The notes under the pieces: model-generated | What the model saw: the letters and a program-made list of their open reading frames with translations, nothing else | Told to the model about the DNA's origin: nothing | Databases searched by the model: none | Translations under genes and position numbers: made by a program | Shown: positions 14,914-36,551 of the stretch, one piece after another | Position numbering within the stretch: the stretch's first letter is position 1 | Layout: every line of letters begins with the position of its first letter | NCBI GenBank assembly: GCA_902786275.1 | Contig: CADACC010000007.1 | Span: 1-43,453, forward strand | From: an uncultured Erysipelotrichaceae bacterium | GTDB lineage: Bacteria > Bacillota_I > Bacilli_A > RF39 > UBA660 | Direction: 5' to 3' | Length of the DNA: 43,453 nt

Positions 14914-15342
14914 ATGTGTAATAACGAAAATGAAAATGGAAATTGCATTTGCGAAATATTAAAAGTTATTTTAGTTTTACAAGAAAATGCATGTCCTGAT
15001 AATTGTTTAGATTCTTGTGATAGACCAATGCTTGGTGGTGGAGCTAACTGTTTAATTTGTAACACAAGACCTGTAATGCTTTATACTTGTGGATCAAATA
15101 GTGAGGCTTTATCTATGCCTGTATCTAAAGACATAACAACATGTACAGAAGCAACAGATTGCTCTAATATCTTTAGAGTTGAAAAGCTTGATGGATGCTG
15201 CTGCACACTTAGGGTTCTTCAACCAAATCCCGATACTACAAGCTTAAATCCATATGTTGGAACAAATTCATTCTTTACGATTAATACAAATTGTTTATGT
15301 TGTATAAGATGTTTAAATGATACTTATATTGATTGTGTTTAA
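14914..15342 (+). CDS. CotY/CotZ-like spore coat protein
   Basis: A 142-residue Cys-rich protein without signal peptide. It follows the CotY/CotZ pattern: CICEILKVILVLQENACPDN near the start, then FRVEKLDGCCCTLRVL in the second half, where Bacillus CotZ has FRVEKLCDCCATLSIL, and a Cys-rich end (CLCCIRCLND). In Bacillus these form the cross-linked crust/outer coat of spores. Length fits the family (about 150). AAAGGGTG precedes the ATG and a terminator follows, so it is transcribed alone. It is the strongest evidence for sporulation in this window. Confidence 0.9.
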   Translation: MCNNENENGNCICEILKVILVLQENACPDNCLDSCDRPMLGGGANCLICNTRPVMLYTCGSNSEALSMPVSKDITTCTEATDCSNIFRVEKLDGCCCTLRVLQPNPDTTSLNPYVGTNSFFTINTNCLCCIRCLNDTYIDCV

Positions 15343-15480: not shown

Positions 15481-17361
15481 ATGAAAGAATCCTACTGGGG
15501 TTATTGGTTAGTAGTTTTAGGTATTTTTGTAATAACTGTTCTACTTTTAATTCAAAATGTAACTAGTCAAAACACTCATGACTACTATGCTGTAAAAGAA
15601 ATAACTCAAGCAGCTATGATAGATGCAATTGATTATGAATATATGGATACTTATGGAGAAGTAAGAATTAATAAAGAAGTATTTATTGAAAGTTTCTTAG
15701 AGAGATTTTCACAAACTGCTTCTCTTAATAATACTTATAAAATATCTTTTTATGATATTTACGAAGTGCCACCTAAAGTATCACTTAAAGTATCAAGTGG
15801 ATCTAACTCATTTAAAGTATTTGGTGATGCAGAAGACTTTGATATTGTAAATAAAATAGATGCAGTATTAGAAGTTCCAACTACTTATGTTCCGGGAAAA
15901 GAAGCTAAAGCTCCATGTAAACTTTGTATAACTGTTGAAAAAGGAACTAAGGTAATTAAAAGAGTTATAGATGGATATAAAATTCCTGGTGCAACAAATG
16001 AAGGCTTTGGTGTAGGTGGAAAATACTATGATATTGTTGTTGAAGAAGATGAAGATCCTAAATGTAAATCTATATATGCAGTATTTAATAATGAAAGCGA
16101 CAATGGTGTTAAACTAGATGGTTTAGCTTATGATATATATACATGCAGACTTTATAATAAAGATGGTTCACCTAAGAAAGGTTGTGAAGTAGTACTTCCA
16201 ATTATAGCTAAAGGTGATGTAAATGTTTATGGATGGAAAAAGAAAGGTGAAAGTACTATTTATACAGTTGGTAGTACAGTAACTATTTCATCAAATACTG
16301 TGTTTGTTCCTGTATTTGATACTAATCCTTTAAAAGGAGTTTCTAAACCTGTTGTTGTAAATCCTGGAACTCCAGTTGTTGATAATAAACCAAAAGAAGA
16401 ACCAAAAGTTGATAATACATCTTGTTTAAAAGAATCAATTACTGTTGATTTTGATAAATTAAAAGATGGTGATGTAACAAATGCAACTGCATGGCCACAA
16501 TATGCAAGTGTACAGTTATACAAAAAAGACAAGTCAAAGGCAAAAACTGTATCTGCTGGAACACCAATGAGAGTGTTTAGCTGTGATGGCTCTTACTGTG
16601 AAGTTTGGGTTAAAGGAGATAACTGTACTGATCATTATCTAATTAAAGAATCTCAAATGCTTATCAATTTACCTGATTATATCCCAAGTATTGTTTATGG
16701 AAATAAAGCAGTAAAAGCTAGTGATTCTCAAAAGCGTCGTGGAATAATCTATAATAGAAAGATAGATGGAGATGCTCCAATTGTTCCAACAAGATATTCT
16801 ATGGCTAAAAGATTATTAAAGGTAGAGCAATCTATTCAAGCTGCAGGTGCTAAGAATAACGCTAAATGGACACTATATGTTGATGATTTATATAGACCTG
16901 TTAGTGCTCAAGGAAATCCAAATTATGCAAGTAATGTAAATTGTTTATATGAAGCTTGTGGTATTTCATATCATGCCTTTGCTGGTGCAATTGATGCATC
17001 TATTCATTACTATGATGAAGAAAATGATTCATGGAAATCAATTGACATGCCAGCTTGGAAAGGTAAAGCTCAAGAAAGTGCTAATGGTGCTAAAAAAACT
17101 AACTATAATACTCTAAAAAATGCAATGACAAATGCGGGATTAAAGGTTTATAGTCCTGAGTGGTGGCATTATAATGATCCATCAGCTATATCTGATAGAT
17201 CTGCATTAAGTAAAAGTGATGCTGAAAAGAAAAAATGGGCTACTTATAAGAAAATGGCATGGGGAAGTTATGCTTGGGTATTTGATTTAGATAAAATCAA
17301 TAAATCTGGTGCTCAGTACTCATACTTAGACTTCTTACCAAAAATGTATTATGAGGATTAA
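15481..17361 (+). CDS. Pilin-like N-terminus fused to an M15 (VanX/VanY-type) peptidoglycan peptidase
   Basis: 626 residues in three parts. Residues 1-137: short leader MKESYWGYW, one membrane helix, and a domain clearly paralogous to the whole 134-residue protein at 29434 (I recall the family as DUF5411). Residues about 138-410: beta-rich, Cys-containing linker and possible SH3-like segment. Residues about 430-626: an M15 metallopeptidase with H498 and D505 in SYHAFAGAIDAS, then E560 and H563 in EWWHYND; spacing equals VanX (H-x6-D; E-x2-H). M15 enzymes cut D-Ala-D-Ala or D-Ala-D-Asp/L-Ala-D-Glu bonds in wall peptides. Because the helix is N-terminal, the peptidase faces outside. Likely role: opening wall for pilus assembly, or a pilus-borne hydrolase; this is inference. 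The ATG follows GAGGTGATT. Confidence 0.85.
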   Translation: MKESYWGYWLVVLGIFVITVLLLIQNVTSQNTHDYYAVKEITQAAMIDAIDYEYMDTYGEVRINKEVFIESFLERFSQTASLNNTYKISFYDIYEVPPKVSLKVSSGSNSFKVFGDAEDFDIVNKIDAVLEVPTTYVPGKEAKAPCKLCITVEKGTKVIKRVIDGYKIPGATNEGFGVGGKYYDIVVEEDEDPKCKSIYAVFNNESDNGVKLDGLAYDIYTCRLYNKDGSPKKGCEVVLPIIAKGDVNVYGWKKKGESTIYTVGSTVTISSNTVFVPVFDTNPLKGVSKPVVVNPGTPVVDNKPKEEPKVDNTSCLKESITVDFDKLKDGDVTNATAWPQYASVQLYKKDKSKAKTVSAGTPMRVFSCDGSYCEVWVKGDNCTDHYLIKESQMLINLPDYIPSIVYGNKAVKASDSQKRRGIIYNRKIDGDAPIVPTRYSMAKRLLKVEQSIQAAGAKNNAKWTLYVDDLYRPVSAQGNPNYASNVNCLYEACGISYHAFAGAIDASIHYYDEENDSWKSIDMPAWKGKAQESANGAKKTNYNTLKNAMTNAGLKVYSPEWWHYNDPSAISDRSALSKSDAEKKKWATYKKMAWGSYAWVFDLDKINKSGAQYSYLDFLPKMYYED

Positions 17362-17771: not shown

Positions 17772-17799
17772 AAAAAAGCCTTAAATTAAGGCTTTTTTT
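17772..17799. terminator. Bidirectional terminator
   Basis: AAAAAAGCCTT / AAGGCTTTTTTT hairpin between the plus gene ending at 17762 and the minus gene whose stop begins at 17798. Confidence 0.85.
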
Positions 17800-19336: not shown

Positions 19337-19364
19337 TTGAACAATTATGACTAAGTGTTATAAT
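19337..19364 (+). promoter_or_regulatory. Promoter of the gene at 19389
   Basis: TTGAAC (19337-19342), 16-base spacer, TATAAT (19359-19364). Confidence 0.6.
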
Positions 19365-19388
19365 TATTTTGATAATATAGGAGGATAT

Positions 19389-20075
19389 ATGAAAAGTATT
19401 TTAAAAATGTTTTTATTTATAACAATTTTTTATTTTATATTATTAACTAATGTTAAAGCTGATGGATGTACTTATGATATTCAAGCAATGATGATGCAAG
19501 ATGCATCAAAGATAGGAATACACTATGAAGAAACTGGTACATACTTAAATGTTATTGTTGAAGGATTAAATGGTTCATATTATATTAAAACAACTACAAC
19601 TAATTTAGATGGAGAAGATGTAAGGTTTCAAGAAACTATATATGGTTCATCAACTACTAATAAGCAAACAATACTTTGGACTAATACAAAGTCTATAAGT
19701 GAAGTAATATTTGATGTATATGGCTCTAACACAACAGCGTGTCCTAATTATAAACTTACGTCAATTAGATTAACTCTTCCTATGTATAATACTTATAGTA
19801 AAGATGATAAATGTAAGGGTAATCAAGATAAATATGTATGTAAGGAATTTGTTACAAATACTATTACTAGGGAAGAGTTTGACCGTGCTTTTCAAAATAA
19901 AATAACTATAGATGTTGAAGATGAAAAAGAAAATACAGTTAAAAAAGTAAAAGAATCTAAAGTTGAAAAGTTCTTTAGAGAAAATAAAACATTTATTATT
20001 GCAGGTTCTTGTTTAATTGTATTTGGCACTATAACAGGGGTTATTTTATACCGTAGAAAAAATAGATTATATTAA
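19389..20075 (+). CDS. Secreted protein with C-terminal membrane anchor (giant-protein companion family), copy 1
   Basis: 228 residues: signal peptide (MKSILKMFLFITIFYF, cut probably after VKA), an outer domain starting with Cys in DGCTYDIQAM, a conserved motif pattern (TTACPNYKLTSIRLTLPMYN; CKGNQDKYVCKEFV), a charged stalk, one C-terminal helix and a basic end (YRRKNRLY). Paralogues are at 20198 and 25423 with the same order: first Cys, N-T-T/S-x-CP, LP-x-x-N-x-Y, C-x6-8-C, anchor. AGGAGG precedes ATG 19389; the frame is open to 19347 but without a site. It has its own promoter and terminator. Confidence 0.82.
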   Translation: MKSILKMFLFITIFYFILLTNVKADGCTYDIQAMMMQDASKIGIHYEETGTYLNVIVEGLNGSYYIKTTTTNLDGEDVRFQETIYGSSTTNKQTILWTNTKSISEVIFDVYGSNTTACPNYKLTSIRLTLPMYNTYSKDDKCKGNQDKYVCKEFVTNTITREEFDRAFQNKITIDVEDEKENTVKKVKESKVEKFFRENKTFIIAGSCLIVFGTITGVILYRRKNRLY

Positions 20076-20090
20076 GATTATTTACAATTT

Positions 20091-20119
20091 AAAACCAACT
20101 AAAAATTAGTTGGTTTTTT
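20091..20119 (+). terminator. Terminator between companion copies 1 and 2
   Basis: AAAACCAACTAA / TTAGTTGGTTTT hairpin with a 3-base loop and a T-run. Confidence 0.85.
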
Positions 20120-20197
20120 ATTAAAAATAAACTTAAAATTATTGTATTTATAACTTGTAATATGTTAAAATGATTATAGTATATGAGGATGGTAATT

Positions 20198-20905
20198 ATG
20201 AAGACTATTAGATTTATATTTTTATCATTAATTTCTTTTATAGCATTTACTTTTTATGTATCTGCGGAATGTACTAATGAAGAAATTTTAAAATTTAGAG
20301 AAGATGCTAAATCAATTAAAACAAATTATAATGTTGAACAAAAAAAGAGTAATGAGTATGATCATGAAACTGGAGATTATATAGAAAAAGATTTTTTTGT
20401 TTTAAAGTTTGTAAATGTACCAAATAATTTTTATATTAAATTAACTGATGATTATGATAATTCAAATAAAGTACTTACTAATATATCAAATAATACTTTA
20501 AGTGCTGATTTTATGGTACAAGATGATGGGGCTCATAATATACACTATGAAATATATACAAATAATACAACATCTTGTCCAAATGAACTTTTAACAGATA
20601 ATTATATTTTACTTCCACAACATAATAGGTATTCACAAATGGATATATGTGTTGATAGTGAAATACCTGAGTGTCAGGAATATGTTAAATCTGAAGTAAC
20701 TTATGATAAGTTTATCAAAGAAACTAGAAAAGAAGCTGACAAAAAGGTTGAGGAAGAAAAAAGAAAACAAAAAGAGAAAGAGAAAAAGGATAAAAACATT
20801 AACACTAAATATATAATTATTGGTGGTGCTGCTATAGTTGTTATTGGCATTATATCAGTAGTTGTTATTAGAAGAGTTCATGAAAGAAAAGTTAGGGGAT
20901 TTTAG
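20198..20905 (+). CDS. Secreted protein with C-terminal membrane anchor, copy 2
   Basis: 235 residues, paralogue of 19389 and 25423. Signal peptide MKTIRFIFLSLISFIAFTFY cut near SAEC; outer domain with NTTSCPNELL and DICVDSEIPECQEYV; a highly charged Lys/Glu stretch (about 175-200) that would act as a helical stalk; one membrane helix; a basic tail. GAGGATGG precedes the ATG. Its stop is 3 bases before the giant protein at 20909, so the two are coupled, as is the pair 25423/26154. That repeated pairing suggests the small protein anchors or chaperones the giant one. Confidence 0.83.
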   Translation: MKTIRFIFLSLISFIAFTFYVSAECTNEEILKFREDAKSIKTNYNVEQKKSNEYDHETGDYIEKDFFVLKFVNVPNNFYIKLTDDYDNSNKVLTNISNNTLSADFMVQDDGAHNIHYEIYTNNTTSCPNELLTDNYILLPQHNRYSQMDICVDSEIPECQEYVKSEVTYDKFIKETRKEADKKVEEEKRKQKEKEKKDKNINTKYIIIGGAAIVVIGIISVVVIRRVHERKVRGF

Positions 20906-20908
20906 GTT

Positions 20909-23900
20909 ATGAAGAAAAAGTTATTAGTGTTATTAATACTTTCTTTATGTTTTATGGGTTTAACAAAAGCTAGTGCATATGCTGTTGGTGATACAGTTAC
21001 AAAGAATATGTATGATGCAGATGACTATAGAATAAGAAGTGATAGAACATTTTATATTCGTAAATATAATGTAAGTGGTTCTGATGATAAAATATATTGT
21101 GCGGATGCATCACTTAAAGGTTATTCGAATTTAAAGGTTGATAGAGTATTAGATCCAGATAGATGTCGTTCTGGAAGTTCAAATCAAACTGGATGTCGTG
21201 ATGGCGCTCATGATGACTACTGGGAAGGTTTATATGATGCAGCGTTATTATTTATTTTAAATGGTAATTATTATGATGATGGTAAAACTATTCAAAATAG
21301 ATCATATACATATGAGCAAAGACTTATGGCACTTCGTGCTTTGGATAATATTAATCCAAGCTTTAGACAAAACAGATATCATACAGGGTTCAGTGTTAAT
21401 AAAGATATTCTGAAGTATATTATTAACTCTGGTATTAACTGGGCTGCTGATGGTGTTGAATCAGATTATGTTAACTGGGTATTTGGTAGATATGATAGAG
21501 CTAATGATCAGTGGATAGATTCTGATTTACCTGCTGGTGATATATCAAGAGAAGAAATGATTAACCATTTATGGTACGGAACATCTCCAAAAGTATGTAA
21601 CCAAAATGGTGGCGGCTGTGAGGGTATTGGAACCGGAGAACTTGATACTGATTATGAAATAATTGCAAGAGCAAAAGAGTTATATCAATCTGCTTTAAGA
21701 TATGCAGGTAAATATAAAAAAGGTGAAGTTCCTGGACAAGCAACTCCTCCAAAAGTTAACGCTAATTTTAAAGTTAAAAGTTTAACATCTGAACTTGAAA
21801 ACTTAGGTAAGAATAATAATCTTACTTATGATGAATATACAAGAGAGTTAAAACTTGAAGTTACATTTAAAGGTTATAATAAATCAAATGATGGACCTGT
21901 TTATATTAAGATTAATCCAGATACTGATGGACGCGTATTTGTAAATGGTTCAAAGATGTATTATAAAAATTTAAATCAAAAAAATAGTAATTGGACTTTA
22001 TTTGATGGTAGTACTGATTTTTCATCAATGCTTAAGGATGATGATACAGTTACATTCCAATTATTAATACCAGTTAAAGCAACTAATATTAATAGATTAG
22101 ATAAATATAAAATTAATTTAGAAATCAATTTCTTATATAGAGAGTATACAATTGGAAAAGGTTATAGATTAGTTCCAAACACTGGTACTATTACTGGTTT
22201 ACAATATTTCTATATCGGTGAACCATTTAGCGGTACAAATGAAGGTGTACCTCATCCTCAATATTTCACATTTGATTGGAATCCATATGATGATGTATTT
22301 TGTAAAAATACTAATCCAACTCCAGACAATGTAGATTTATATAAACTATATTTAAAGACATGTTGTCGTGAAAGAGAAAATGGATCAAGTAGAGATGTTA
22401 TTGTTACAAGAGAATGTGATAATGCAACAAAAGCTTATGAAAGTAATAAAACAAACGATAATCTAGCTAAAATGAAATTATGGTGTGAAACTAAAAAAGC
22501 ATACTGTGATTATTGTAATGATAAAATAACAGTTCCTTATATGTGTTCTGAATTTAGTGATGATAATAAAACTGTTCCAAACTGTGTTGATGGAGCTGAT
22601 GCATCAGTTATGAGCCCAACAGATATTAAAATATGTGTTGTTGACTATTCAGACATTGTTGAAAATCCATATCAATTAACAAAAGAAAATGCAACTAACG
22701 AAAAGAAAAATGGAGAAGTAGAAGGCGATACTAAATCAGTTCATGAATATTGTAATATTTACTGTAAAGAAGATTATAAAATTGGACTTCCTTTAGGTAA
22801 ATGGCTTGAAGCTGGTTCATCATTTACACTTGATGTTCAAGTTGATGGTACTAAGTCTTGTTATACTGATGAGATAAATTATAATTTATTTAGAAAAGAC
22901 TATGATAAAGCTTATGCCAATTTAAGAGCATCTAAGAGTCAAGCTAATATAAATACTTATAACAAAGTATTAAATAACTATAGTTCATGCGCAACTTTAT
23001 ATAATAATAATAAAGACCAACAATCTAAACTTCTTAATATTAAATCAGATGAACAAAAAGTTGAATTTAAGTATCAAGAAGATTATTTAAAAAATCAAAG
23101 TGGAGTTGATCAAAAAGTTCCACTTAAGAAACTTGAAGAAAAAAATGATGATATTGTTTTATGGTTCTGTGATGGCGATGTTGATAATGATTATAATAAG
23201 TGTTTAGGTGGAACACCATGGAGTGTTAAAACTGAAAACTTAGCAGGATTTAATTGTTCTGGCAGTAGTTGTTCTGAGTCAACTGTAACAATTCCAAGAA
23301 CAAGATATGCTAAATCAATTAGCACTAACCATACTTTATTTGCACCTGAAACTGAGTTCTTTACAAACTATACAGGTAATAAATTAAGTTTGAGTCAAAT
23401 GAATAAAAAAGTTATTGATGCAGCAGCATACTATAATAGTATTAAAGATCCAATTGAAAGATTAAATAAAATGAATGCTGCGTATGCAACAATTGGATAT
23501 AAGAAAGTAACTAAGACTGTATACATTAATCAACAAATATATTCTCAAGAGTCATATCCAATTATGTTATCCACTGAAAAAGGCGCTTATAATTTTGATA
23601 TTATATTTAGTGGATTTGGTGAGTACTTCAGTACTGGTAAAACAGGTAGACTAATTGGTAATGCTAATTCTGTAGCTATTAAAAATGATACAAGATTTAA
23701 AGGTGAATACTTCTGTGAGTACGCTGTTAATTGTAAAAATTGTCGTGTAACAACAACTCCAGGTAAGACACCTCCAATAACTACTCCACCAGCTGTTACT
23801 TGGGAAGAAGTTCCATATGAAGCAATTACTACATACTGTAATGGTTGCGGAGTTGTAGTAGAGGGTACTGCACAAGGAGCATTAATATTTAGACAAATTT

Positions 23901-24391
23901 CATTAACAAATGTTAACCCATCAGATAGAAGTTTAGGTTATAACTTAGTTAACTTAAAAGGTGATGCAGCTGTTAAAGAAATTGAAACTAATGGTGAAGA
24001 AGTTTATAACGAAACTAATGGTAAGATAAGTAAATACGAAGTTACACTTACTCCGGAAGTTATAAATTATATCAATGATTATGTTAAGAAAAATAAGGGT
24101 GATAAAGTTGTATCAAATCTAAGTGATATTAAGTGTGATACATACTTTAATACAACACTTAACAAAAAAGATTCTGCTAAACATCAAGTTTCTGAAAGAT
24201 TTGATTACTTGATTTGCCATAGTGGACTTCTTGAGAAATTACAATCTGATCCATCAATTCTTAAAAAAGCAGAAGTTGATAATAACTTAAAGAACCAAAG
24301 CTGGGTTGAAAGTGAATACTGCTTAGGAAATGATTGTATTATCGGTATGGGATTTGGATATGGACAAGTATTTGGTCCAGCATATAAATAG
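20909..24391 (+). CDS. Giant secreted Cys-rich surface protein, copy 1
   Basis: 1160 residues with a signal peptide (MKKKLLVLLILSLCFMGLTK, cleavage near ASA). It shares a run of blocks with the 1086-residue protein at 26154: KIYCADAS versus AFCMDAI near the N-terminus, YCDYCNDKITVP, YCNIYCKEDYKIGLP, CEYAVNCKNC, RQISLTNVNPSDRSLGYNL, and the end GPAYK (GPAWK in the paralogue). Many Cys occur as pairs, implying disulphides. No LPXTG motif and no C-terminal helix, so retention must depend on a partner, probably the anchored proteins next to it or the pilus. A thioester-type N-terminal domain is conceivable (Cys block, then EQRLMALRAL) but unproven. No characterised family recognised. Confidence 0.8.
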   Translation: MKKKLLVLLILSLCFMGLTKASAYAVGDTVTKNMYDADDYRIRSDRTFYIRKYNVSGSDDKIYCADASLKGYSNLKVDRVLDPDRCRSGSSNQTGCRDGAHDDYWEGLYDAALLFILNGNYYDDGKTIQNRSYTYEQRLMALRALDNINPSFRQNRYHTGFSVNKDILKYIINSGINWAADGVESDYVNWVFGRYDRANDQWIDSDLPAGDISREEMINHLWYGTSPKVCNQNGGGCEGIGTGELDTDYEIIARAKELYQSALRYAGKYKKGEVPGQATPPKVNANFKVKSLTSELENLGKNNNLTYDEYTRELKLEVTFKGYNKSNDGPVYIKINPDTDGRVFVNGSKMYYKNLNQKNSNWTLFDGSTDFSSMLKDDDTVTFQLLIPVKATNINRLDKYKINLEINFLYREYTIGKGYRLVPNTGTITGLQYFYIGEPFSGTNEGVPHPQYFTFDWNPYDDVFCKNTNPTPDNVDLYKLYLKTCCRERENGSSRDVIVTRECDNATKAYESNKTNDNLAKMKLWCETKKAYCDYCNDKITVPYMCSEFSDDNKTVPNCVDGADASVMSPTDIKICVVDYSDIVENPYQLTKENATNEKKNGEVEGDTKSVHEYCNIYCKEDYKIGLPLGKWLEAGSSFTLDVQVDGTKSCYTDEINYNLFRKDYDKAYANLRASKSQANINTYNKVLNNYSSCATLYNNNKDQQSKLLNIKSDEQKVEFKYQEDYLKNQSGVDQKVPLKKLEEKNDDIVLWFCDGDVDNDYNKCLGGTPWSVKTENLAGFNCSGSSCSESTVTIPRTRYAKSISTNHTLFAPETEFFTNYTGNKLSLSQMNKKVIDAAAYYNSIKDPIERLNKMNAAYATIGYKKVTKTVYINQQIYSQESYPIMLSTEKGAYNFDIIFSGFGEYFSTGKTGRLIGNANSVAIKNDTRFKGEYFCEYAVNCKNCRVTTTPGKTPPITTPPAVTWEEVPYEAITTYCNGCGVVVEGTAQGALIFRQISLTNVNPSDRSLGYNLVNLKGDAAVKEIETNGEEVYNETNGKISKYEVTLTPEVINYINDYVKKNKGDKVVSNLSDIKCDTYFNTTLNKKDSAKHQVSERFDYLICHSGLLEKLQSDPSILKKAEVDNNLKNQSWVESEYCLGNDCIIGMGFGYGQVFGPAYK

Positions 24392-24405
24392 TTAATTATT
24401 AATTT

Positions 24406-24449
24406 ACAAGCTAATGTCTGATTTAAAAAAATCAGGCATTAGTACTTGT
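24406..24449 (+). terminator. Long hairpin after giant copy 1
   Basis: ACAAG-CTAATG-CTGATTT pairs with AAATCAG-CATTAG-CTTGT with small mismatches. Its 3' arm runs into the -35 of the next promoter, so termination and initiation share bases. Confidence 0.65.
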
Positions 24450-24474
24450 ATTTATTTTAAAAAATTAATATAAT
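24446..24474 (+). promoter_or_regulatory. Promoter of the first cpaB-like gene
   Basis: TTGTAT (24446-24451), 17-base spacer, TATAAT (24469-24474), overlapping the hairpin at 24406-24449. Confidence 0.65.
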
Positions 24475-24502
24475 TAACACAGAATAAGAGGAGGAAATAA
24501 GA

Positions 24503-25276
24503 GTGAAAAATACTTTTAAAAGATTCTTTGGTAATAAAAATACTGTTACAATACTTGGTGTTTTAGCTGGTATTGCAGTTTTATTTTTCTCATATAATAG
24601 TAGGGTTGATAAAGCTATTCAACCTTTAAAAGTTCCATACGCAAAAGAAAAAATAGATTCAGCTGAAAAAATAACTGCTGAAATGGTTGGAACTATTGAT
24701 GTTCCATCATCATTTACATCTAAAGCAACCAATTTAGTTACTAGTGCATCAGATGTAATTAATAAAAGAGTAGCAATCGGAACAAGTATTCCAGCAAATG
24801 GACTTTTTTATCAAGAACAAGTTATAACTGATGAACAACTTCCTGATGCTGCTTTTGCTAATATTCCTGATGGATATACAATATATTATCTTCCAGTTAG
24901 TATGGAAAGTACTGTATATAATAAGATTTTTCCAGGAAATTATATTGATTTATATTTAAATACAGTTAATGAAGATGGAAAACCTATTTTTGGTAAACTT
25001 ATTTCATCAATTGAAGTTATAGATGTTAAAGATGAATCTGGTGAACACGTATTTAGCAAAAATGATGCAACAGGTAATCCTGCAGTGTTCTTATTTGTAG
25101 TACCTGATGAAATGTATTTATTCTTAAAACGTGCTGAACTTCTTCAATATGAAATACTTCCAGTTCCAAGAAATGAAAGTTATTCATCTAATCCTGGTGA
25201 AACTGAGTATAGTTCTGAATATTTAAAAGCAATTATTAATATGAATACAGCAACTATTCCAGAGGAAAATGCATAG
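24503..25276 (+). CDS. CpaB/RcpC-like Tad pilus assembly protein, copy 1
   Basis: 257 residues with a GTG start after GAGGAGG. N-terminal membrane helix (NKNTVTILGVLAGIAVLFF), then a SAF-like domain: VPYAKEKIDSAEKITAEMVG and IPANGLFYQEQV, followed by the RcpC-type beta domain (PGNYIDLYLNTV; AVFLFVVPDEMYLFLKRAEL). It is a clear paralogue of the protein at 29928. CpaB/RcpC proteins sit in the envelope and guide Tad pilus assembly; in Gram-negatives they work with the secretin, which is not expected here. It has its own promoter and terminator, so it is a one-gene unit between the two giant-protein units. Confidence 0.88.
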   Translation: MKNTFKRFFGNKNTVTILGVLAGIAVLFFSYNSRVDKAIQPLKVPYAKEKIDSAEKITAEMVGTIDVPSSFTSKATNLVTSASDVINKRVAIGTSIPANGLFYQEQVITDEQLPDAAFANIPDGYTIYYLPVSMESTVYNKIFPGNYIDLYLNTVNEDGKPIFGKLISSIEVIDVKDESGEHVFSKNDATGNPAVFLFVVPDEMYLFLKRAELLQYEILPVPRNESYSSNPGETEYSSEYLKAIINMNTATIPEENA

Positions 25277-25292
25277 GTAAAAAATGAATATG

Positions 25293-25353
25293 AAAAAGTG
25301 GATATTTTATAGCCAAAATTTGCTTAATATATGCTATAAAAATCCACTTTTTT
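25293..25353 (+). terminator. Terminator after cpaB-like copy 1
   Basis: AAAAAGTGGAT-ATTTTATAGC pairs with GCTATAAAA-ATCCACTTTTT, about 19 bp, ending in six T. Confidence 0.85.
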
Positions 25354-25369
25354 AAATGCCCGAAAATTC

Positions 25370-25398
25370 TTGAATTAATATAGGTTTTGTGTTATTAT
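25370..25398 (+). promoter_or_regulatory. Promoter of the second giant-protein unit
   Basis: TTGAAT (25370-25375), 17-base spacer, TATTAT (25393-25398), upstream of the gene at 25423. Confidence 0.6.
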
Positions 25399-25422
25399 AA
25401 CGGCAGAGGTTGGTGTAATACT

Positions 25423-26157
25423 ATGAGAAAAAGATTGCTAGTTTTATTTATGATACCTGCAATGCTTCTTTTCACTGTAAAAGCAAATGCATCAAATTGT
25501 GATGCAAACAAGCTACGTGAGATAAAACAAGAAGCATCTAAGGTAAAACTTACTTATGAAGAAGTAGAAGAGGTTGTTAATAATCAAACAACTCAAGGTG
25601 GATCTGATGCTGGATATGATTATGATGTTTATGATACTTATTTAAAAGTAACAATATCTAATTTAACTGATGATTTATATGTTAAGGTTATTAATACTTC
25701 AGATAACAGCGTTAAAGAGTTTTATGGAAAAGACGCAACTGATGGAACTATATCATTTAAGTGGACAGATTTAAAAACTATTGCAAAATTAGAACTTAAA
25801 GTATATACTAGTTCGAATACATCTTGCCCTGACGAAGAAATATTAACTGATTATAAAACACTACCAAAGATGAATGAGTACTATACTTGGGATGGATGTG
25901 TCAAAAACCCTGATGAGGCCATCTGTAAAAAGTATGTGGAAAAAGATGTATCATATGAGGCATACAAGAAAGTAGCTGATAAGGAAACTACAAAGAAAAC
26001 TGAAAAAGTAGTTGAAGATAAAAGTGGTAATAAAATTACTAGATTTGTAAAAAAGAATAAAAAAGGATTTATAATAGGTGGCTCTATTATTATCGTTTTA
26101 GGGGTTGTTACTACTGCTGTGGTAATTATTAAACGAAGAGGGAGTCGAATAATATGA
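25423..26157 (+). CDS. Secreted protein with C-terminal membrane anchor, copy 3
   Basis: 244 residues, paralogue of 19389 and 20198. Signal peptide MRKRLLVLFMIPAMLLFTVK with cleavage near ANA, first Cys in SNCDANKL, then NTSCPDEEILTDYKTLPKMN, CVKNPDEAICKKYV, a charged stalk, one C-terminal helix and KRRGSRII. The frame is open to 25387 but those residues lack a site; the ATG at 25423 follows GAGGTTGGTG at slightly long spacing. The stop codon TGA overlaps the ATG of the giant protein at 26154 (ATGA), so translation is coupled. Confidence 0.84.
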   Translation: MRKRLLVLFMIPAMLLFTVKANASNCDANKLREIKQEASKVKLTYEEVEEVVNNQTTQGGSDAGYDYDVYDTYLKVTISNLTDDLYVKVINTSDNSVKEFYGKDATDGTISFKWTDLKTIAKLELKVYTSSNTSCPDEEILTDYKTLPKMNEYYTWDGCVKNPDEAICKKYVEKDVSYEAYKKVADKETTKKTEKVVEDKSGNKITRFVKKNKKGFIIGGSIIIVLGVVTTAVVIIKRRGSRII

Positions 26158-29100: not shown

Positions 29101-29414
29101 AACAAATCAATGCTGATTCAAATAGTTATACAGAACTTCCAAAAGAATGGGAAGATAAGTCATTATATGAAAACTATTCTGAATATGTAAAACGTAGATA
29201 TGGTGAAAATTCTAAACAATATAAAGAAGCTTTAGAACATGACTATAAGATCTACAAGAGTTCAGTACTTGATGAACTTGCAAAAACAACAAATGCAATT
29301 AAATATAAAGCTTTATTAGATACTCGTGAAAAAGTAGTATCATGGCTTGATAGTGACTACTGTAAAGTTAATGCTTGTGCTATGGACGGCGCAGTAGGAC
29401 CTGCATGGAAATAG
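26154..29414 (+). CDS. Giant secreted Cys-rich surface protein, copy 2
   Basis: 1086 residues with a signal peptide (MIKKFRSLVIVLVALLAGFI, cleavage near VFA). Blocks shared with the 20909 protein: EAFCMDAIRKSG, CCRGRNDEG, YCDYCNDKVTVPQTCSEIS, YCKVSCKEDYRIQLP, CSYVVNCKECTVKC, HQTSLTDFNASNRELGSNL, and the end AVGPAWK. It has an extra Cys cluster near residue 900 (CDFDPEPCPDCPLQCDGPC). No C-terminal anchor and no sortase motif. It is followed 19 bases later by the pilin-like gene 29434, so giant, anchor protein and pilin-like protein share one transcript. Proposed as a pilus-associated adhesin or shaft-coating protein; inference only. Confidence 0.8.
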   Translation: MIKKFRSLVIVLVALLAGFIYSSNVFAFTSSDSSGTQYLGSGNTLSGAYTYDGVTHNYSIFNHTMNIGGTSYEAFCMDAIRKSGSGNGAHLVKVLNPNDPIDVVLLSIVNSDASYEAKTLAERAFLPLTSYVSYWDPGRGSRTGGFNFGEIYTNYNSGIVWATEENEATRAIIKKVTGKDLGENFTAKQLYSITGLSDAPRYDGFNTKEVLKESIGTVKEAKEIYKEALRLGAEVAKGNKISDKKVVYSTPDYDTDSYETIEGNDGVKRGSRQVHFEVTFIGFKNASNDPVRLEINPDDQGRLKVEYSEYQIKGDKTDTWTKFDSNTDFRSVIGDNDNITIKVRTRISALVTKEATFNVSFKIKAVYKDIQLSRLSGAIYALNNGYLQRFIVADGDKNTPVDQTGTFPLKWRNTEGFCKDQVPDKNDTTAFKEYLDLCCRGRNDEGFNIKDECAKSQKANNEAGIKLWCGLKEEYCDYCNDKVTVPQTCSEISPTEFVNEEDKVATITGPEDIKVCVMDGLDEANHPYLLTKDESVKPKTSENDNGNSYCKVSCKEDYRIQLPTARYVNNGTKFTLKMDIEAQKTCYSDIIDYNKFNEDYAKYVAEIKSHIDAGTANKNNQEFVNTLKAYEKAIKDINACSAGWASDYEFDPEITFDYQEEYIDLLGQHDLKFVSEDKKVKEAGSWFCDGSDVNRKYDQCIGGKGTETKPTTTKSGYKCTLNSDGKTYKCEATDVVVPTSKFAKKTVKGFGTYAPESIFETKFSTGVVKYNPDGTTYQYTRLEEKLATTIPDSDKEEVVAGDLPIALKTGRGVYNYGIQFKGVGEYFDKAGKGRLIGDKTAVAFTNDDTEFKGIYVCSYVVNCKECTVKCEEPKTEDLLIFKQLGFDVDLTTKFCDFDPEPCPDCPLQCDGPCIYDPEYGQLYTVHQTSLTDFNASNRELGSNLTNVKGQAFISELEEKGESIYGEEPEYTFVFTPAAIEFVKQINADSNSYTELPKEWEDKSLYENYSEYVKRRYGENSKQYKEALEHDYKIYKSSVLDELAKTTNAIKYKALLDTREKVVSWLDSDYCKVNACAMDGAVGPAWK

Positions 29415-29433: not shown

Positions 29434-29838
29434 ATGAAAGAATCATATTGGGGTTATTGGTTAGTTATTCTTGGTATATTTGTTATTGTAGTTTTGATGC
29501 TTATTCAAAATGTTACATCAACAAATACACAAGATTATTATCTTGTCAAAGAAATTACTGAAGCAGCTATGGTTGATGCTGTTGATTACGGCTATTATCG
29601 TCAATATGGTGAAGTTCGTATTTCAAAAGAGAAATTTATTGAAAGTTTCTTAAGAAGATTTGCTGAGTCAGCAAGTCTAAGTACAACATATAAGATTCAA
29701 TTTTATGATATTTACGAAGTACCTCCTAAGGTATCCGTAAAAGTCTCATCGTCATCTAAGTCATTTAATGTCTTTGGTGATACAGACTCATTTGATATTG
29801 TAAATAGAATAGATTCAGTATTAGAGCTTAACAATTAG
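29434..29838 (+). CDS. Pilin-like protein (DUF5411-like)
   Basis: 134 residues: MKESYWGYW, a membrane helix (LVILGIFVIVVLMLIQNV) and a small outer domain (EVRISKEKFIESFLRRFAES; YKIQFYDIYEVPPKVSVKVS). It is about 60-70% identical by eye to residues 1-137 of the M15 fusion at 15481 and lacks any catalytic part. A helix right after a very short N-terminus followed by a small beta domain is the layout of TadE/TadF-like minor pilins. AAAGGATC precedes the ATG. Its stop codon lies in the terminator loop region. Confidence 0.82.
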   Translation: MKESYWGYWLVILGIFVIVVLMLIQNVTSTNTQDYYLVKEITEAAMVDAVDYGYYRQYGEVRISKEKFIESFLRRFAESASLSTTYKIQFYDIYEVPPKVSVKVSSSSKSFNVFGDTDSFDIVNRIDSVLELNN

Positions 29839-29927: not shown

Positions 29928-30710
29928 ATGGGAAATGCTTTAACTAATATTAAAAGAATTTTATCTAACAGAAATACTGTTACAATTTTAGCAGTACTTC
30001 TTGGTGTAGTTGTATTATATTTTGCTTATAATATGAGAGTAAAGGAAGCTATTGAACCTGTGCAAGTTCCATGTGCAAAGGTTGAAATAAATTCTGGTAC
30101 AATAATTACTGAAGATATGATTGATTATGTTCAAATATCTAAAAAGTTAATAAAAAAGAGCCCTGGTATTATAACAAATGAATCTGATTTAATTGGTAAA
30201 AGAATTGATGATAGTTCATCTATTCCTGTTAATGGTTTATTTTATACAGATCAACTTGCAGAAAATTCTGAAGTTTCATCCATTTTTAAAGATATAAAAG
30301 ATGGATTTACTGTATTTACTTTAAAAGTTAATTTTAATACTACTTATGGTAACTCAATTTATCCTGGTAACTATATTGATTTATATGTTGAAGGCGAAGA
30401 TGATAACGGTAAATTAATCTATACTAAATTTATTGAATCTATTAAAGTTCTTGGTGTTGTTGATCAAGAAGGTAATAATGTATTTGGTGGTACTAATTCA
30501 AAAGATAATGAACCAGCAGCTTTATTATTTGCTGTTCCTGATGATATGTTTAAACTTTTAAGAAAAGCTGAGTTAGTTGGATTAACAATTTATCCAATTC
30601 CAAGAAACTTATCTTACACAAAAAATCCTAAAGCAACTGAAGTAGCAAGTACTTATGTACAAAATTTAATTACTGTTAGAACTGCTACAATACCTGATGA
30701 AGATTTATAA
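29928..30710 (+). CDS. CpaB/RcpC-like Tad pilus assembly protein, copy 2
   Basis: 260 residues, paralogue of 24503: RNTVTILAVLLGVVVLYFAY helix, SAF-like VPCAKVEINSGTIITEDMID, IPVNGLFYTDQ, then PGNYIDLYVEGE and ALLFAVPDDMFKLLRKAEL. ATG follows GGAGGAAT. It heads the operon with the ATPase and the two platform proteins, the classical cpaB-tadA-tadB-tadC order, so this is probably the core copy and 24503 the accessory one. Confidence 0.9.
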   Translation: MGNALTNIKRILSNRNTVTILAVLLGVVVLYFAYNMRVKEAIEPVQVPCAKVEINSGTIITEDMIDYVQISKKLIKKSPGIITNESDLIGKRIDDSSSIPVNGLFYTDQLAENSEVSSIFKDIKDGFTVFTLKVNFNTTYGNSIYPGNYIDLYVEGEDDNGKLIYTKFIESIKVLGVVDQEGNNVFGGTNSKDNEPAALLFAVPDDMFKLLRKAELVGLTIYPIPRNLSYTKNPKATEVASTYVQNLITVRTATIPDEDL

Positions 30711-30749
30711 AATTAATTAAATAAAGAATAAAATAAAGAGGTGGCTAGC

Positions 30750-32069
30750 ATGAACGATGCTATATTTTCACAAATCGATTTTGGACCTATTAAAGAGTTT
30801 TTAGACGATGATAATGTAACCGATATTGAATATAACAATAACGGTCAAGTTTATATTAAAACTCTTGATAAGGGTGTATTTCGTGTTGATAGACCTGAAA
30901 TAAATAATACTTTAATTGAAAAGTTAGCTTTCCAATGTTCTAATGTAATGGGTAAGTCCTTCAATATGGCTCACCCTTTTCTTGATGCAGAGAGTGCTGA
31001 ACTTCGTCTTAACTTTATTCATGAATCAATTGCAACTAATGGTATTGCTGTTACTATTCGTAAAACTCCTGCAAAAATAAGACTTAATAGAGATAAATTA
31101 TTAAGTGAAAAATATGTTACTGAGAATTTACTTGATTTCTTAATTACTTGTGTTAAAGGTCACTGTAATATTATTGTAAGTGGTGAAACTGGTTCAGGTA
31201 AAACAGAACTTGTTAAGTTTTTAGCATCACATACACTTGAAAATGAAAAAATTGTTACAATAGAGGATACACTAGAACTTCACTTAGATAGAATTTATCC
31301 TCATAGAAGTATCATTGCAATGAAAACAAATAATATAGCAGATTATGCTGATGTACTTGTTACTTGTATGAGACAGAACCCAAGATGGATTTTACTTTCT
31401 GAGGTTCGTTCCGCTGAAGCTGTTATGAGTGTAAGAAACTCTATTTCATCTGGTCATAGTATTTTATCAACTATTCACTCAGATAGAGCAGTAAATATAC
31501 CAATGCGTATGTATTCACTACTTGAAACAAATCTTGATATTGATCAATTCTTAAAATCAATTCATAGATATGTACAACTAGGTATACATGTAAAGGGATA
31601 TATGTCAGCTGAGCTTGGTAGATTTCAACGTGAAATTGTTGAAGTTTGTGAATTTTACGTAGATGATGATAATGAAGCTAAGACAAATATTTTATATAAA
31701 AAGAACTTAGATGGAACAATTACATTTAACAATCCATCAAAATATATTAGACAAACACTTGGTGCACAAGGTATAATTATAGAGGATAACATATTTACTG
31801 ATCAGGACCAAAATACTGATGAGGAAGTACAAAATGCTGATACAGGAATGCCTGCTGTAAATACTGTTCAAGAACCTATGCAAGAAGAAGTTATGATGCC
31901 TGATCAAAATGTTCAAATTGAACAACAAGTTCAAGCTCAAGCTCCTGTTTATAATGAACAAATTAATCAAGTCCCACCAATGCAAAATGTAAATATGGGA
32001 CCTGTTATGAATCAACAACAACCTGTTAATAATGGTTTTAACTTTGATGAAAATATTCCTCAAGGTTAG
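30750..32069 (+). CDS. tadA: TadA/CpaF-type pilus assembly ATPase
   Basis: 439 residues. The ATG at 30750 follows GAGGTGG; a GTG at 30741 lies inside that site. N-terminal domain 1-130, Walker A GETGSGKT (145-152), Asp box IVTIEDTLEL (168-177), Walker B ILLSEVR with Glu218, His box GHSILSTIHSD (235-245): all catalytic elements of a secretion ATPase are present. It should form a cytoplasmic hexamer driving pilus assembly through TadB/TadC. From about residue 335 the protein continues into roughly 105 residues rich in Gln, Asn, Pro, Glu and Met with no visible fold, which TadA proteins normally lack. Confidence 0.95.
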   Translation: MNDAIFSQIDFGPIKEFLDDDNVTDIEYNNNGQVYIKTLDKGVFRVDRPEINNTLIEKLAFQCSNVMGKSFNMAHPFLDAESAELRLNFIHESIATNGIAVTIRKTPAKIRLNRDKLLSEKYVTENLLDFLITCVKGHCNIIVSGETGSGKTELVKFLASHTLENEKIVTIEDTLELHLDRIYPHRSIIAMKTNNIADYADVLVTCMRQNPRWILLSEVRSAEAVMSVRNSISSGHSILSTIHSDRAVNIPMRMYSLLETNLDIDQFLKSIHRYVQLGIHVKGYMSAELGRFQREIVEVCEFYVDDDNEAKTNILYKKNLDGTITFNNPSKYIRQTLGAQGIIIEDNIFTDQDQNTDEEVQNADTGMPAVNTVQEPMQEEVMMPDQNVQIEQQVQAQAPVYNEQINQVPPMQNVNMGPVMNQQQPVNNGFNFDENIPQG

Positions 32070-33898: not shown

Positions 33899-34189
33899 AT
33901 GAAAGAAGCTACTGGAGAATTAAATATGACAGTTATTACTGTAGTTGCTATAGTTGCAGTTGGAGGTTTATTTACATTATTTGTATGGCCTGCAATTAGA
34001 AGAAGTATAAGACTTAATTCAGCTTGTAGTTCAGCAGGTAATACTGAATATAAAACAACTGAAAATGATGGAGCTACTATTGAATGTAACACAGCTTCTC
34101 TAAAGGGTAAATGCCAATTAACTGAGAAGAATGGTTCTAAACACCAAAAACAATGTGATACAAACAATACTGGTAACCAAAATAATTAA
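33899..34189 (+). CDS. Flp-like major pilin candidate
   Basis: 96 residues: MKEATGELN, a membrane helix (about 10-29), then a short hydrophilic domain with several Cys (SACSSAG, IECNTAS, GKCQLT, KQCDTN). Helix at the extreme N-terminus and small size are as in Flp pilins. The usual Flp leader with G-x4-E-Y is not present; instead the chain begins with a 6-residue stretch ending in Gly, followed by Glu. It is the first gene after the strong promoter, with AAGGAGG upstream, so it is the best candidate for the main subunit. Confidence 0.75.
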   Translation: MKEATGELNMTVITVVAIVAVGGLFTLFVWPAIRRSIRLNSACSSAGNTEYKTTENDGATIECNTASLKGKCQLTEKNGSKHQKQCDTNNTGNQNN

Positions 34190-34232
34190 TATTTTGTAAT
34201 ACTTATAGTTTTAAGAATAGAGGGCAAACAAA

Positions 34233-34502
34233 GTGAAAGAGGCGACAGGTGAACTAAATTCTAGTGTTATAATTCTTATAACGATAGGACTCCTATCGAC
34301 TTTTTTCTTTACTATAGTTTGGCCTTTTTTAAATAAGAATTTAAAATCTAGTACAAAGTGTAGTAGTGCATACTGCCCACCTGTTTGTACTAAGTCTAGT
34401 AATGGCAAAAAAACTTGCAAACCTAACTGGGCTGATGATGATCATAAGACAGTTAAATGTAAGTATGAGGGTACAACTATGAAGTGCCCTTATAAGGGAT
34501 AG
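34233..34502 (+). CDS. Pilin-like protein, paralogue of the major pilin
   Basis: 89 residues, GTG start after AGAGGG. The first nine residues, MKEATGELN, are identical to the previous pilin, then a helix (SSVIILITIGLLSTFFFTIV, about 10-29) ending in WP as in the paralogue, and a Cys/Lys-rich tail (SAYCPPVCTKSSNGKKTCKP, VKCKYEG, MKCPYKG). Likely a second or variant subunit of the same fibre. Confidence 0.75.
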   Translation: MKEATGELNSSVIILITIGLLSTFFFTIVWPFLNKNLKSSTKCSSAYCPPVCTKSSNGKKTCKPNWADDDHKTVKCKYEGTTMKCPYKG

Positions 34503-34517
34503 AGTGGTGATTGACTA

Positions 34518-34997
34518 GTGAGAGAATCTTTTGGATCAACTTGGTTATTCCAAATTGTTATAGTTTTTATCCTTATTTTTACAGGATATATATGTCTTTC
34601 AATTAACCATTCTAAAGCTTTTGCAATTAAAAATGATATTATATTGGAACTACAAAGAAATGGTGGATATAATGCAACAGCTGCAGCTAATGTAAAAACA
34701 CTTCTTGAAAGATCTGGTTATAGAACTAGTGGAAAGTGTGATAAAGGCTGGACTGGTTATACAAGAGATGGTAAAGTGGATTCTAATGGTAAGAACTCAG
34801 TATTCTGCTTACAAAAAGTTGATATAGCTCAAGCTTATGCACATCAAAATGCATATGGTAAAACAATAGTTGAATATCCTGAAACTTTTTACTATAAAAT
34901 AAAGGTTTTTTATCAACTAGATTTACCAGTTTTAAACTCTTTTGCAACATTTTATGTAAGAGGAGATACTAAAGTTATTGCACCACTTAAAAGCTAG
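34518..34997 (+). CDS. Minor pilin-like protein (TadE/TadF-type layout), copy 1
   Basis: 159 residues with GTG start after a GGTGAT site. MRESFGSTW, membrane helix (LFQIVIVFILIFTGYICLSI), then an outer domain with two Cys (GKCDKGW, VFCLQK) and a closing beta segment (YYKIKVFYQLDLPVLNSFAT). Same layout as the next gene. TadE/TadF-like pseudopilins prime pilus assembly; the assignment rests on layout and position. Confidence 0.76.
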   Translation: MRESFGSTWLFQIVIVFILIFTGYICLSINHSKAFAIKNDIILELQRNGGYNATAAANVKTLLERSGYRTSGKCDKGWTGYTRDGKVDSNGKNSVFCLQKVDIAQAYAHQNAYGKTIVEYPETFYYKIKVFYQLDLPVLNSFATFYVRGDTKVIAPLKS

Positions 34998-35019: not shown

Positions 35020-35532
35020 ATGAGAGAATCTATTGGTAGTACATGGGTTTTTATGCTTGTAATAGTTTTTATCTTACTATTCGTAAGTTTTTTAACTCTG
35101 GCCTTAACTTATTCTAAAAGTTTTAAAACTAAAAATGAATTAATAAATATAATTGAAAAATATGAAGGTGTATCATCTGATTCAGTAAAGGTAATTAATA
35201 ATTATTTATCTTATACTGGTTATGATATAAAAGGACAGTGTCCATCTGATAATACAGGTAAATGGCTTGCATCAACTAACCTTAAATCTAATACTCTTGT
35301 TAAAGCTCAAAATGGACAAGAATATTTTTACTGTGTTAGACGTGACTATACAACTAAACCTGTTAAAGGTGGAAAGAGTAAGAAAAATTTAAAATCTGTA
35401 TATTATGAAATAGTTATATTTTATAGATTTAATCTTCCTATAATAGATACAGTTACCAAATTTAAAGTAGATGGTTTAACTGGTGATATAGTAAAAACAA
35501 ATGATTACTTTGATAAAGTAAGTTTTAATTAG
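35020..35532 (+). CDS. Minor pilin-like protein (TadE/TadF-type layout), copy 2
   Basis: 170 residues: MRESIGSTW, helix (VFMLVIVFILLFVSFLTLAL), then an outer domain with two Cys (GQCPSDN, FYCVRRD) and YYEIVIFYRFNLPIIDTVTK, which aligns with the previous protein. AGAAGGGAA precedes the ATG. The pair appears to be a tandem duplication. Confidence 0.77.
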   Translation: MRESIGSTWVFMLVIVFILLFVSFLTLALTYSKSFKTKNELINIIEKYEGVSSDSVKVINNYLSYTGYDIKGQCPSDNTGKWLASTNLKSNTLVKAQNGQEYFYCVRRDYTTKPVKGGKSKKNLKSVYYEIVIFYRFNLPIIDTVTKFKVDGLTGDIVKTNDYFDKVSFN

Positions 35533-35546
35533 AAAAGGTGAAGTTT

Positions 35547-36551
35547 ATGAACGTTATAGTTAGTAACAAAAATCAAGATATATTATCTAATCTAGATATT
35601 GATTTAATTAAAAGTATAAATGGTGAGTTTACTCCTGAAGAAATATCAGCTCAATTTCCACCAAACTTTTATTTTAATAAAATGGTTTTAGATATAACTG
35701 CAGTTAAGGGTTATACTGATATTAATATTATTCAAGAATTATCTCTTCTTTTAGATATGTCTAAAGTTGTATTATTCTTAGATGATTCAGAACAAGTTAA
35801 TTCACCGGTTTATTTATCTCAACTTGTTTCAATGGGTATATATAACTTTACTAAGAATGTTGATGCAGTTAAGTTCTTAATAGATAATCCTAACACTTAT
35901 AAAGATGTTGCTAGTTATCATCAACTTAATAATGTATCAAGTAAAGCAACAAGCTCTATGTCAATTGGTGGACTTGATTCAGTTGAAGATTCACGTCTTA
36001 GAGTTATAGGATTTAAAAATATTACATCTGGCGCAGGAGCAACAACATTATGCTATATGCTAAAAAAACAACTTGAAAAATCTTATGGTGTTATTGCTGT
36101 TGAAGTAGGTAAAAATGATTTTATGTACTTAAATGATAAGTCTTTACAAAAGACTGATGATTTATCATCATTTATTAACAATAACCAAAGAAGTGAAGTT
36201 ATTTTAGTTGATTTAAATGATTCAGAGAATGAAGACTTATGTACTGATGTTGTTTATTTAATTGAACCTGGTTTACTTAAACTTAATAAGTTAATTAGAA
36301 GAGATAGTCAAATTTTTGAAAAACTTAAAGGTAAAAAGATTGTTTTAAATAGAAGTGTATTATCTGAAAAAGATGTTCAAGATTTTGAATCTGAAAGTGG
36401 TAGTAAGATATTCTTTAATATACCAAATTTAGATGATAAAAAAGAATATCATAAAGTTTTAGAAGACTTCTTAGTTGAGATGGAATTCTTAAGATTTAAA
36501 AGTGATGGAACTTCTTCTAAAAATAAAGGTTTATTTAGCATATTTAAATAA
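35547..36551 (+). CDS. TadZ/CpaE-like ATPase
   Basis: 334 residues, ATG after AAAAGGTG. N-terminal receiver-like domain without an obvious phosphate-acceptor set (about 1-120: KVVLFLDDSEQVNSPVYLSQ), then a MinD/ParA-like P-loop domain with NITSGAGATTL. The Walker A Lys is missing at the usual GKT place (GAGATT), as in the CpaE/TadZ family with G-x-G-A-T-T. VILVDLND is the Walker B-like strand. TadZ proteins locate the Tad machine at one cell site. The gene is the last of the pilin operon; the stop codon lies in the terminator. Confidence 0.82.
   Translation: MNVIVSNKNQDILSNLDIDLIKSINGEFTPEEISAQFPPNFYFNKMVLDITAVKGYTDINIIQELSLLLDMSKVVLFLDDSEQVNSPVYLSQLVSMGIYNFTKNVDAVKFLIDNPNTYKDVASYHQLNNVSSKATSSMSIGGLDSVEDSRLRVIGFKNITSGAGATTLCYMLKKQLEKSYGVIAVEVGKNDFMYLNDKSLQKTDDLSSFINNNQRSEVILVDLNDSENEDLCTDVVYLIEPGLLKLNKLIRRDSQIFEKLKGKKIVLNRSVLSEKDVQDFESESGSKIFFNIPNLDDKKEYHKVLEDFLVEMEFLRFKSDGTSSKNKGLFSIFK

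Follow-up and report, generated by a model that had tools for sequence, protein, structure and literature searches.

A VanX-like peptidase domain on three carrier proteins of a Tad-type operon suggests a wall-processing tool displayed by the pili of RF39 bacteria

A VanX-like domain recurs on three different carriers of a Tad-type operon in uncultured, small-genome Bacilli of the order RF39, which suggests a wall-processing tool displayed on the pili or at their base. One of these proteins, a fusion of a DUF5411 module with an M15 peptidase, is encoded in the contig analyzed here (C7, 43,453 nucleotides; hereafter, the window), which belongs to the 1.1-Mb genome, in 68 contigs, of an uncultured Erysipelotrichaceae bacterium. 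It is rather likely, in our assessment, that this is a modular pilus-system protein, in which a DUF5411 carrier bears an exchangeable C-terminal cargo, SH3b followed by a VanX-like zinc D,D-peptidase, as an optional specialization. We infer the incorporation of the fusion into a filament, its peptidase activity and its substrate.

Architecture of the fusion protein and the Tad operon

The fusion is real: a single intact open reading frame of 626 amino acids without internal stops (15481-17361, + strand) matches two Pfam families above their curated cut-offs, DUF5411 (PF17424; residues 1-132, E = 3.6e-51) and Peptidase_M15 (PF01427; residues 530-573, E = 1.5e-7). As originally predicted, the N-terminal part is paralogous to the standalone 134-aa protein encoded at 29434, which consists of DUF5411 alone (E = 3.6e-59 in Pfam); 100 of the 132 residues are identical (76%). 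The two-part architecture in the same prediction was borne out, but it missed an SH3b-like domain and the partial conservation of the linker, the full domain order being DUF5411, linker, SH3b-like domain and VanX-like M15 domain. In the predicted structure, the SH3b-like domain (residues ~332-396) matches the SH3b of pneumococcal LytB (VIA-align, Z about 9), and SH3_3 was also matched in two homologues (L029 and L032). An alignable version of the linker (about residues 133-331) follows DUF5411 in a protein of a congener that lacks M15 thereafter. The mean pLDDT of the full-length model is only 59.7, but residues 1-110, the M15 core and the SH3b domain are modeled with good confidence.

The window carries a Tad-type operon that encodes, in this order, a small and a large surface protein, DUF5411, CpaB, the CpaF ATPase, two membrane proteins in the TadB/TadC positions, two pilin-like proteins, the pseudopilin-like proteins PS1 and PS2, and a TadZ-like protein (Table 1). 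No relevant Pfam match was found for TadB, TadC, TadZ or the Flp pilin, and these labels follow from gene order, size and conserved neighborhood. The fusion gene sits 12 kb upstream of the canonical DUF5411 slot, and a terminator-like hairpin (17772-17798) comes after the gene of the 131-aa protein downstream of the fusion. Immediately before the fusion lies a CotZ-like spore coat gene (14914-15342; PF10612, E = 4.2e-14); in another genome, G122, a CotZ-like homologue (L155:137-610) likewise lies a short distance upstream of the Tad genes. Upstream of the Tad core, the genes for the small and large surface proteins and CpaB are tandemly duplicated (19347-29414), and the large surface proteins of this region are Cys-rich, fast-evolving and without Pfam domains. 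The two pilin-like proteins (33899-34502) share the start MKEATGELN, which is near-invariant across the relatives examined and departs from the common class III leader, in which Glu stands at +5. No RNA families or tRNAs were found in the window.

The only A24 prepilin peptidase match in the genome is on another contig (G000:C6:11382-11714; loci L052 and L164), where it adjoins a second CpaF/GspE-like ATPase, so that the Tad operon may borrow this peptidase. Across the order, 138 of 146 genomes have a prepilin peptidase.

Table 1. Features of the fusion gene and the Tad-type operon in the window
Feature	Position	Strand	Remark
DUF5411 (PF17424) module of the fusion, residues 1-132	15481..15876	+	predicted N-terminal helix 2-48
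Linker of the fusion, residues 133-331	15877..16473	+	possibly Ig-like
SH3b-like domain of the fusion, residues 332-396	16474..16668	+	
VanX-like M15 peptidase domain of the fusion, residues 397-575	16669..17205	+	R472, H498, D505, E560, H563
131-aa protein with N-terminal hydrophobic segment	17367..17762	+	directly 3' of the fusion, 5-nt gap; no family assigned
Second RcpC/CpaB-like copy	24503-25276		E 1.7e-4, below curated cut-off
Small surface protein, about 250 aa	25387..26157	+	
Large surface protein, 1086 aa	26154..29414	+	homologue in G607 with N-terminal M15
Standalone DUF5411 paralogue	29434..29838	+	canonical slot; Pfam
RcpC/CpaB-like protein	29928..30710	+	E 1.1e-5, below curated cut-off
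CpaF/TadA-type ATPase	30741..32069	+	T2SSE E 6.3e-28
Two TadB/TadC-position membrane proteins	32097-32990, 32992-33780	+	by position and size; no Pfam match
Two pilin-like proteins starting MKEATGELN	33899..34502	+	
Pseudopilin-like PS1	34518..34997	+	homologues in four genomes with SH3b-M15 module
Pseudopilin-like PS2	35020..35532	+	homologous to PS1 (hhalign)
TadZ-like protein	35538..36551	+	by position; no family match

The VanX-like peptidase domain

Structure prediction, one of the checks originally proposed, yielded the M15/VanX fold for the C-terminal domain. The best VIA-align match of the M15 model is VanX (PDB 1r44; Z = 12.3 over 159 residues, 3.8 Å), with lower scores for hedgehog (about 10-11), the endolysin Ply500 (8.9) and LdcB (8.0-8.2), and VanX is also the sole PDB match (E = 6e-16) of a profile built from nine M15 domains. 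The His/Asp/His zinc ligands correspond to H498, D505 and H563, and the catalytic Glu to E560; the stretch D469-x-Y471-R472-P473 lies upstream of these residues. All four were placed correctly in the original prediction, whereas the VanX spacing that it assigned to them is close but not identical: 7, 55 and 3 in the window protein against 7, 58 and 3 in VanX, as judged from an alignment and from the VanX residues His116, Asp123, Glu181 and His184. None of the 23 inspected Tad-linked modules has lost any of the four residues, and two of these modules show slight differences in the surrounding motif.

With VanX (MEROPS M15D), the domain has in common the fold, the zinc ligands, the catalytic Glu, the Arg of D-x-Y-R-P and the EWWH motif, at about 23% identity. 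It scores 25.9 bits with the NCBIfam VanX equivalog (cut-off 176) and 18.2 bits with the DdpX-type equivalog PRK10178 (cut-off 320); because these cut-offs are far from reached, it is not the same enzyme as VanX or DdpX. Judged by sequence, the window domain is thus VanX-like, related to but distinct from the VanX enzyme. Unlike VanX, it is predicted to be extracellular, accompanied by SH3b and membrane-anchored on a pilus-system protein. Enzymes of the VanX type act on the ends of stem peptides or on dipeptides and are not known to cut cross-links. Given that VanX is a strict dipeptidase, the natural substrate of the M15 head may be a free dipeptide rather than the wall.

The DUF5411 carrier

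The proposal that the N-terminal part of the fusion is of the pilin type holds in one respect and not in others. DUF5411 shares the start M-[KR]-E-[AS] and an N-terminal helix with the pilin-like proteins of the operon, but no solved pilin was matched: the Foldseek and VIA matches listed for the DUF5411 model include no pilin, the best of them (Z = 6.8) being an unrelated enzyme. The model itself is lollipop-like, with a predicted helix at residues 2-48, short helices and three strands. The sequence begins with MKESYWG and continues into the hydrophobic helix, without the Glu at +5 that a canonical class III leader would have; position 7 is Gly, Ala, Thr or Ser in relatives. Homology of DUF5411 to PS1 and PS2 was rejected because the profile similarity does not extend past the first 22-34 residues and has a low probability. 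PS1 and PS2, which are homologous to each other (hhalign 100%, E = 2e-45) and adjoin the pilin-like genes, are therefore better pseudopilin candidates than DUF5411. DUF5411 is a Tad-linked membrane module and probably a minor pilin or pseudopilin, the pilin nature being what we infer rather than observe.

Copies of DUF5411 are mostly 130-165 aa long, and many have C-terminal extensions, which comprise M15 with or without SH3_3, Fn3, Big_2, or parts without a family assignment. Three further loci encode DUF5411 with other long C-terminal heads (L036:4295-7816, L037:4640-6991 and L035:4769-6592), in Cys-rich and partly Big_2 or Ig-like proteins of 600-1170 aa overall. These long heads suggest that DUF5411 serves as a general carrier for exchanged heads.

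Recurrence of the peptidase module on Tad-operon proteins

We analyzed two samples of the order, a first one of 146 genomes and an enlarged one of 385. DUF5411 is present in 119 of the 146 genomes; in a sample drawn from the class, it exceeds the cut-off only in the family of the window. It closely tracks the TadC-position protein, with both present in 115 genomes, neither in 23 and only one in 8 (Fisher p = 7e-19; tally partly deduced for the short unlisted remainders of the genome lists). Nine of the 119 DUF5411 genomes of the first sample encode an M15 fusion, and ten more from the enlarged sample bring the DUF5411-M15 fusions to 19, spread over eight genera, which rules out a chance join or an assembly error. 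Eight of the nine fusion genomes of the first sample have the fusion in the DUF5411 slot, flanked by the genes for the large surface protein and CpaB, and seven of these eight have no other DUF5411 (G131 encodes a standalone copy beside the fusion). Because most fusion genomes have no other DUF5411, the fused protein must do the DUF5411 job of the operon.

The module is not limited to this carrier. In four genomes of genus g13 (L216, L217, L218 and L219), SH3b-M15 is attached to PS1, and in all three of them whose loci cover the DUF5411 slot, a standalone DUF5411 occupies it; no genome among those seen has the module on both DUF5411 and PS1. Since PS1 and PS2 are the better pseudopilin candidates, these grafts are the stronger argument for a link to the pilus. 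In G607 (L220:4389-9008), a large surface protein of the operon type (1539 aa) has SH3b-M15 as its N-terminal part, which makes it a third carrier and apparently an independent recruitment. Altogether, 24 of about 33 modules in the order (E about 1e-20 or better) are on Tad-operon proteins. The search for the same fusion beside tad genes thus showed that M15 is recurrent on membrane proteins of the Tad operon, and the two findings that had been named as fatal to the original prediction, lack of an M15 fold and lack of homologous fusions, are replaced by their opposites.

The window copy is the least typical of the fusions, being located outside the slot and having an M15 domain that is 22-29% identical to those of the others. 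None of its four sampled congeners has a DUF5411-M15 fusion. One of them, G488, encodes a second DUF5411 protein of 284 aa (L193:10213-11067) that ends after a window-like linker, without SH3b-M15, and is located inside the Tad operon, between the small and large surface proteins.

Exchange and origin of the module

In the CpaF/TadB/TadC tree, the fusions are scattered over about seven lineages. In the M15 tree, the AU test rejected the genus clades at moderate values (g13, p = 0.015; g3, p = 0.043). The fusions of G118 and G122, which belong to different genera, are 75% identical in M15 and 58% in DUF5411, whereas G112 and G051 show 47% identity in M15 and 90% in TadBC. Low M15 identities mean little by themselves because the operon surface proteins also evolve fast; the telling value for module exchange is the high M15 identity of G118 and G122. 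A single origin followed by simple vertical descent was rejected given the conflict of the module trees with genus and machinery, with the caveat that the AU values are only moderate. Because the module trees disagree with the machinery, we conclude that the module moves between carriers and lineages.

The PS1-borne modules nest among the DUF5411-borne ones in the module tree, and the module of the large surface protein groups with free-standing modules (99/99), so that carriers have changed; by this tree evidence, the module was probably recruited at least twice. For the PS1 modules as a single clade, the test gave no significant rejection (p = 0.097). The DUF5411-borne modules form one clade when eight fusions are included, and this clade was mildly rejected with more members (p = 0.044). 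The window M15 forms a long branch of unsure placement.

Other origins were also considered. An origin from a phage endolysin was rejected given the lack of a PHROGs family or phage record, and no DUF5411 relatives were found in viral contigs; a plasmid origin was rejected because the only matches, to Enterococcus M15, were weak; and there was no PADLOC match that would indicate a defense system. A tie between the M15 module and loss of Ddl was not seen, the ATP-grasp match of the window genome being a D-Ala-D-Ala ligase beside murF.

Possible functions of the fusion

Under the modular pilus-system model, DUF5411 would be the constant module, with the N-terminus predicted to be inside and the C-terminus outside, free for varied cargo. 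The cargo would be a secreted-type SH3b plus VanX-like zinc D,D-peptidase, a combination found free-standing in many Bacillota too, and the Tad machine would put it at the tip or the base of the filament. By analogy with the respective families, SH3b would grip peptidoglycan, and the M15 site, with its zinc, would trim D-Ala-containing stem peptides, the candidate targets being the own wall, shed fragments, and neighbors. Given that the sole DUF5411 of an operon carries 300-450 extra residues, a low-copy place at the tip or base seems more plausible than a role as a shaft subunit. The patchiness and exchange of the module fit an accessory, ecology-driven role.

A role in foraging or adhesion, in which the SH3b head binds fragments or foreign walls and the enzyme frees D-Ala or trims material for uptake by an organism with a small genome, catalysis perhaps being secondary, is doubtful but deserves consideration. 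The Ig/Big_2- and Fn3-type heads on other DUF5411 proteins are of usually adhesive types, and related orders with reduced genomes have gaps in the synthesis of wall precursors and may depend on muropeptides (PMC10868615). However, the invariable retention of the catalytic residues in the inspected modules would be needless for pure adhesion, and the window genome has both ddl and murF.

We consider it unlikely that the module serves local wall opening, whereby M15 at the assembly site would remove the terminal D-Ala of the pentapeptide and reduce local cross-linking, letting the filament pass through the wall of its own cell. The producer genome encodes ddl beside murF, PBPs and Mur ligases, that is, wall genes of the D-Ala-D-Ala type, and its own wall is therefore a possible M15 substrate; furthermore, SH3b suggests wall binding, and linkers of widely varying length would allow the domain to extend from the membrane as far as the wall. 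Against this, the rarity of the fusion relative to DUF5411 in the first sample (9 and 119 genomes) indicates that the machine works without M15, and cross-link cutting is not a known activity of VanX-type enzymes. Because most genomes with the same Tad system are devoid of the module, a general or compulsory role in wall opening is unlikely, which weakens the original idea of wall opening as a general need of pilus passage.

It is similarly improbable that DUF5411, as an accessory protein anchored in the membrane, has no more than the operon in common with the pilus and that M15 is an ordinary surface wall enzyme. The lack of a pilin fold match for DUF5411 would agree with such an arrangement, as would the free-standing membrane-anchored SH3b-M15 proteins that are common in Bacillota, but the near-perfect co-occurrence of DUF5411 with Tad genes, the grafts of the module on PS1, whose gene stands with the pilin-like ones, as well as on a large surface protein of the operon type, and the predominance of Tad-operon carriers in the order all argue against it.

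A weapon or predation device, in which a contact-dependent Tad-like apparatus would bring a peptidoglycan hydrolase to neighbors, as is suspected for Myxococcus Kil, appears very unlikely: the patchy distribution and the exchange across lineages and carriers are typical of interaction functions, and prey killing by M. xanthus needs a Tad-like apparatus whose lytic enzyme is described as unknown (PMC8460266), but a D,D-peptidase trims and does not lyse, no gene resembling an immunity gene was identified next to the fusion, and PADLOC and PHROGs yielded no match. We regard as quite unlikely, too, the boldest version of the modular pilus-system model, namely, that the Tad pili of these Bacilli end in an exchangeable head, here a peptidoglycan D,D-peptidase, that hops from subunit to subunit and from lineage to lineage and whose targets are the walls of other cells. 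Such a head would be a wall enzyme borne by the pilus and dependent on contact, in a monoderm.

Relation to known systems

Modular pilins have been described chiefly as adhesins in type IVa pili. PilB and PilC of Streptococcus sanguinis are modular type IV pilins, a group in which S74 and M26 peptidase modules have been predicted (PMC8179133). Like these, the fusion has a non-pilus functional module located C-terminally on a small pilus-system module, and the modules on one kind of carrier are varied. The carrier, however, is DUF5411 or a Tad pseudopilin-like protein rather than an IPR012902 pilin, the machine is of the Tad type, the module is SH3b-M15, and the carrier varies within one operon. 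Free-standing SH3b-M15 proteins of Trichococcus, Bacillus, Enterococcus and Lachnospiraceae share the M15 motif set and, often, the domain order, but have lipobox-like or simple signal anchors in place of Tad-operon carriers.

The sole paper found to name DUF5411 (PMC9523054) reports an operon in Roseburia, Ruminococcus and Eubacterium, predicted to be secretion-related, in which DUF5411 likewise accompanies a CpaF-type ATPase and a PilC/GspF-type protein; an M15 fusion is not described there. The Kil system of Myxococcus xanthus also links a Tad-like machine to peptidoglycan damage, but its host is Gram-negative and, in the available text (PMC8460266), the lytic enzyme is unknown and no fusion of a hydrolase to a Kil pilin is reported. 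In a literature that included few subscription papers, neither Tad pili combined with M15 or with peptidoglycan hydrolases nor Tad pili of RF39 yielded a description of the arrangement. The original statement that no Tad component of this kind had been described stands for this literature, although the general modular-pilin idea has been published (PMC8179133). What is new is the application of this idea to a Tad-type machine with a wall peptidase, in a form that is recurrent and more general than originally noted.

With the module on three carriers, nature itself has set up an experiment through which the link from enzyme to machine can be tested. If the proposed explanation is true, the fusion would give DUF5411 its first functional handle, and the presence of a peptidoglycan enzyme on several subunits of one Tad-type machine would extend the repertoire of pili to the display of wall-processing enzymes. 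It may also shed light on the meeting of filaments with thin monoderm walls or on the lytic factor of Tad-like killing systems.
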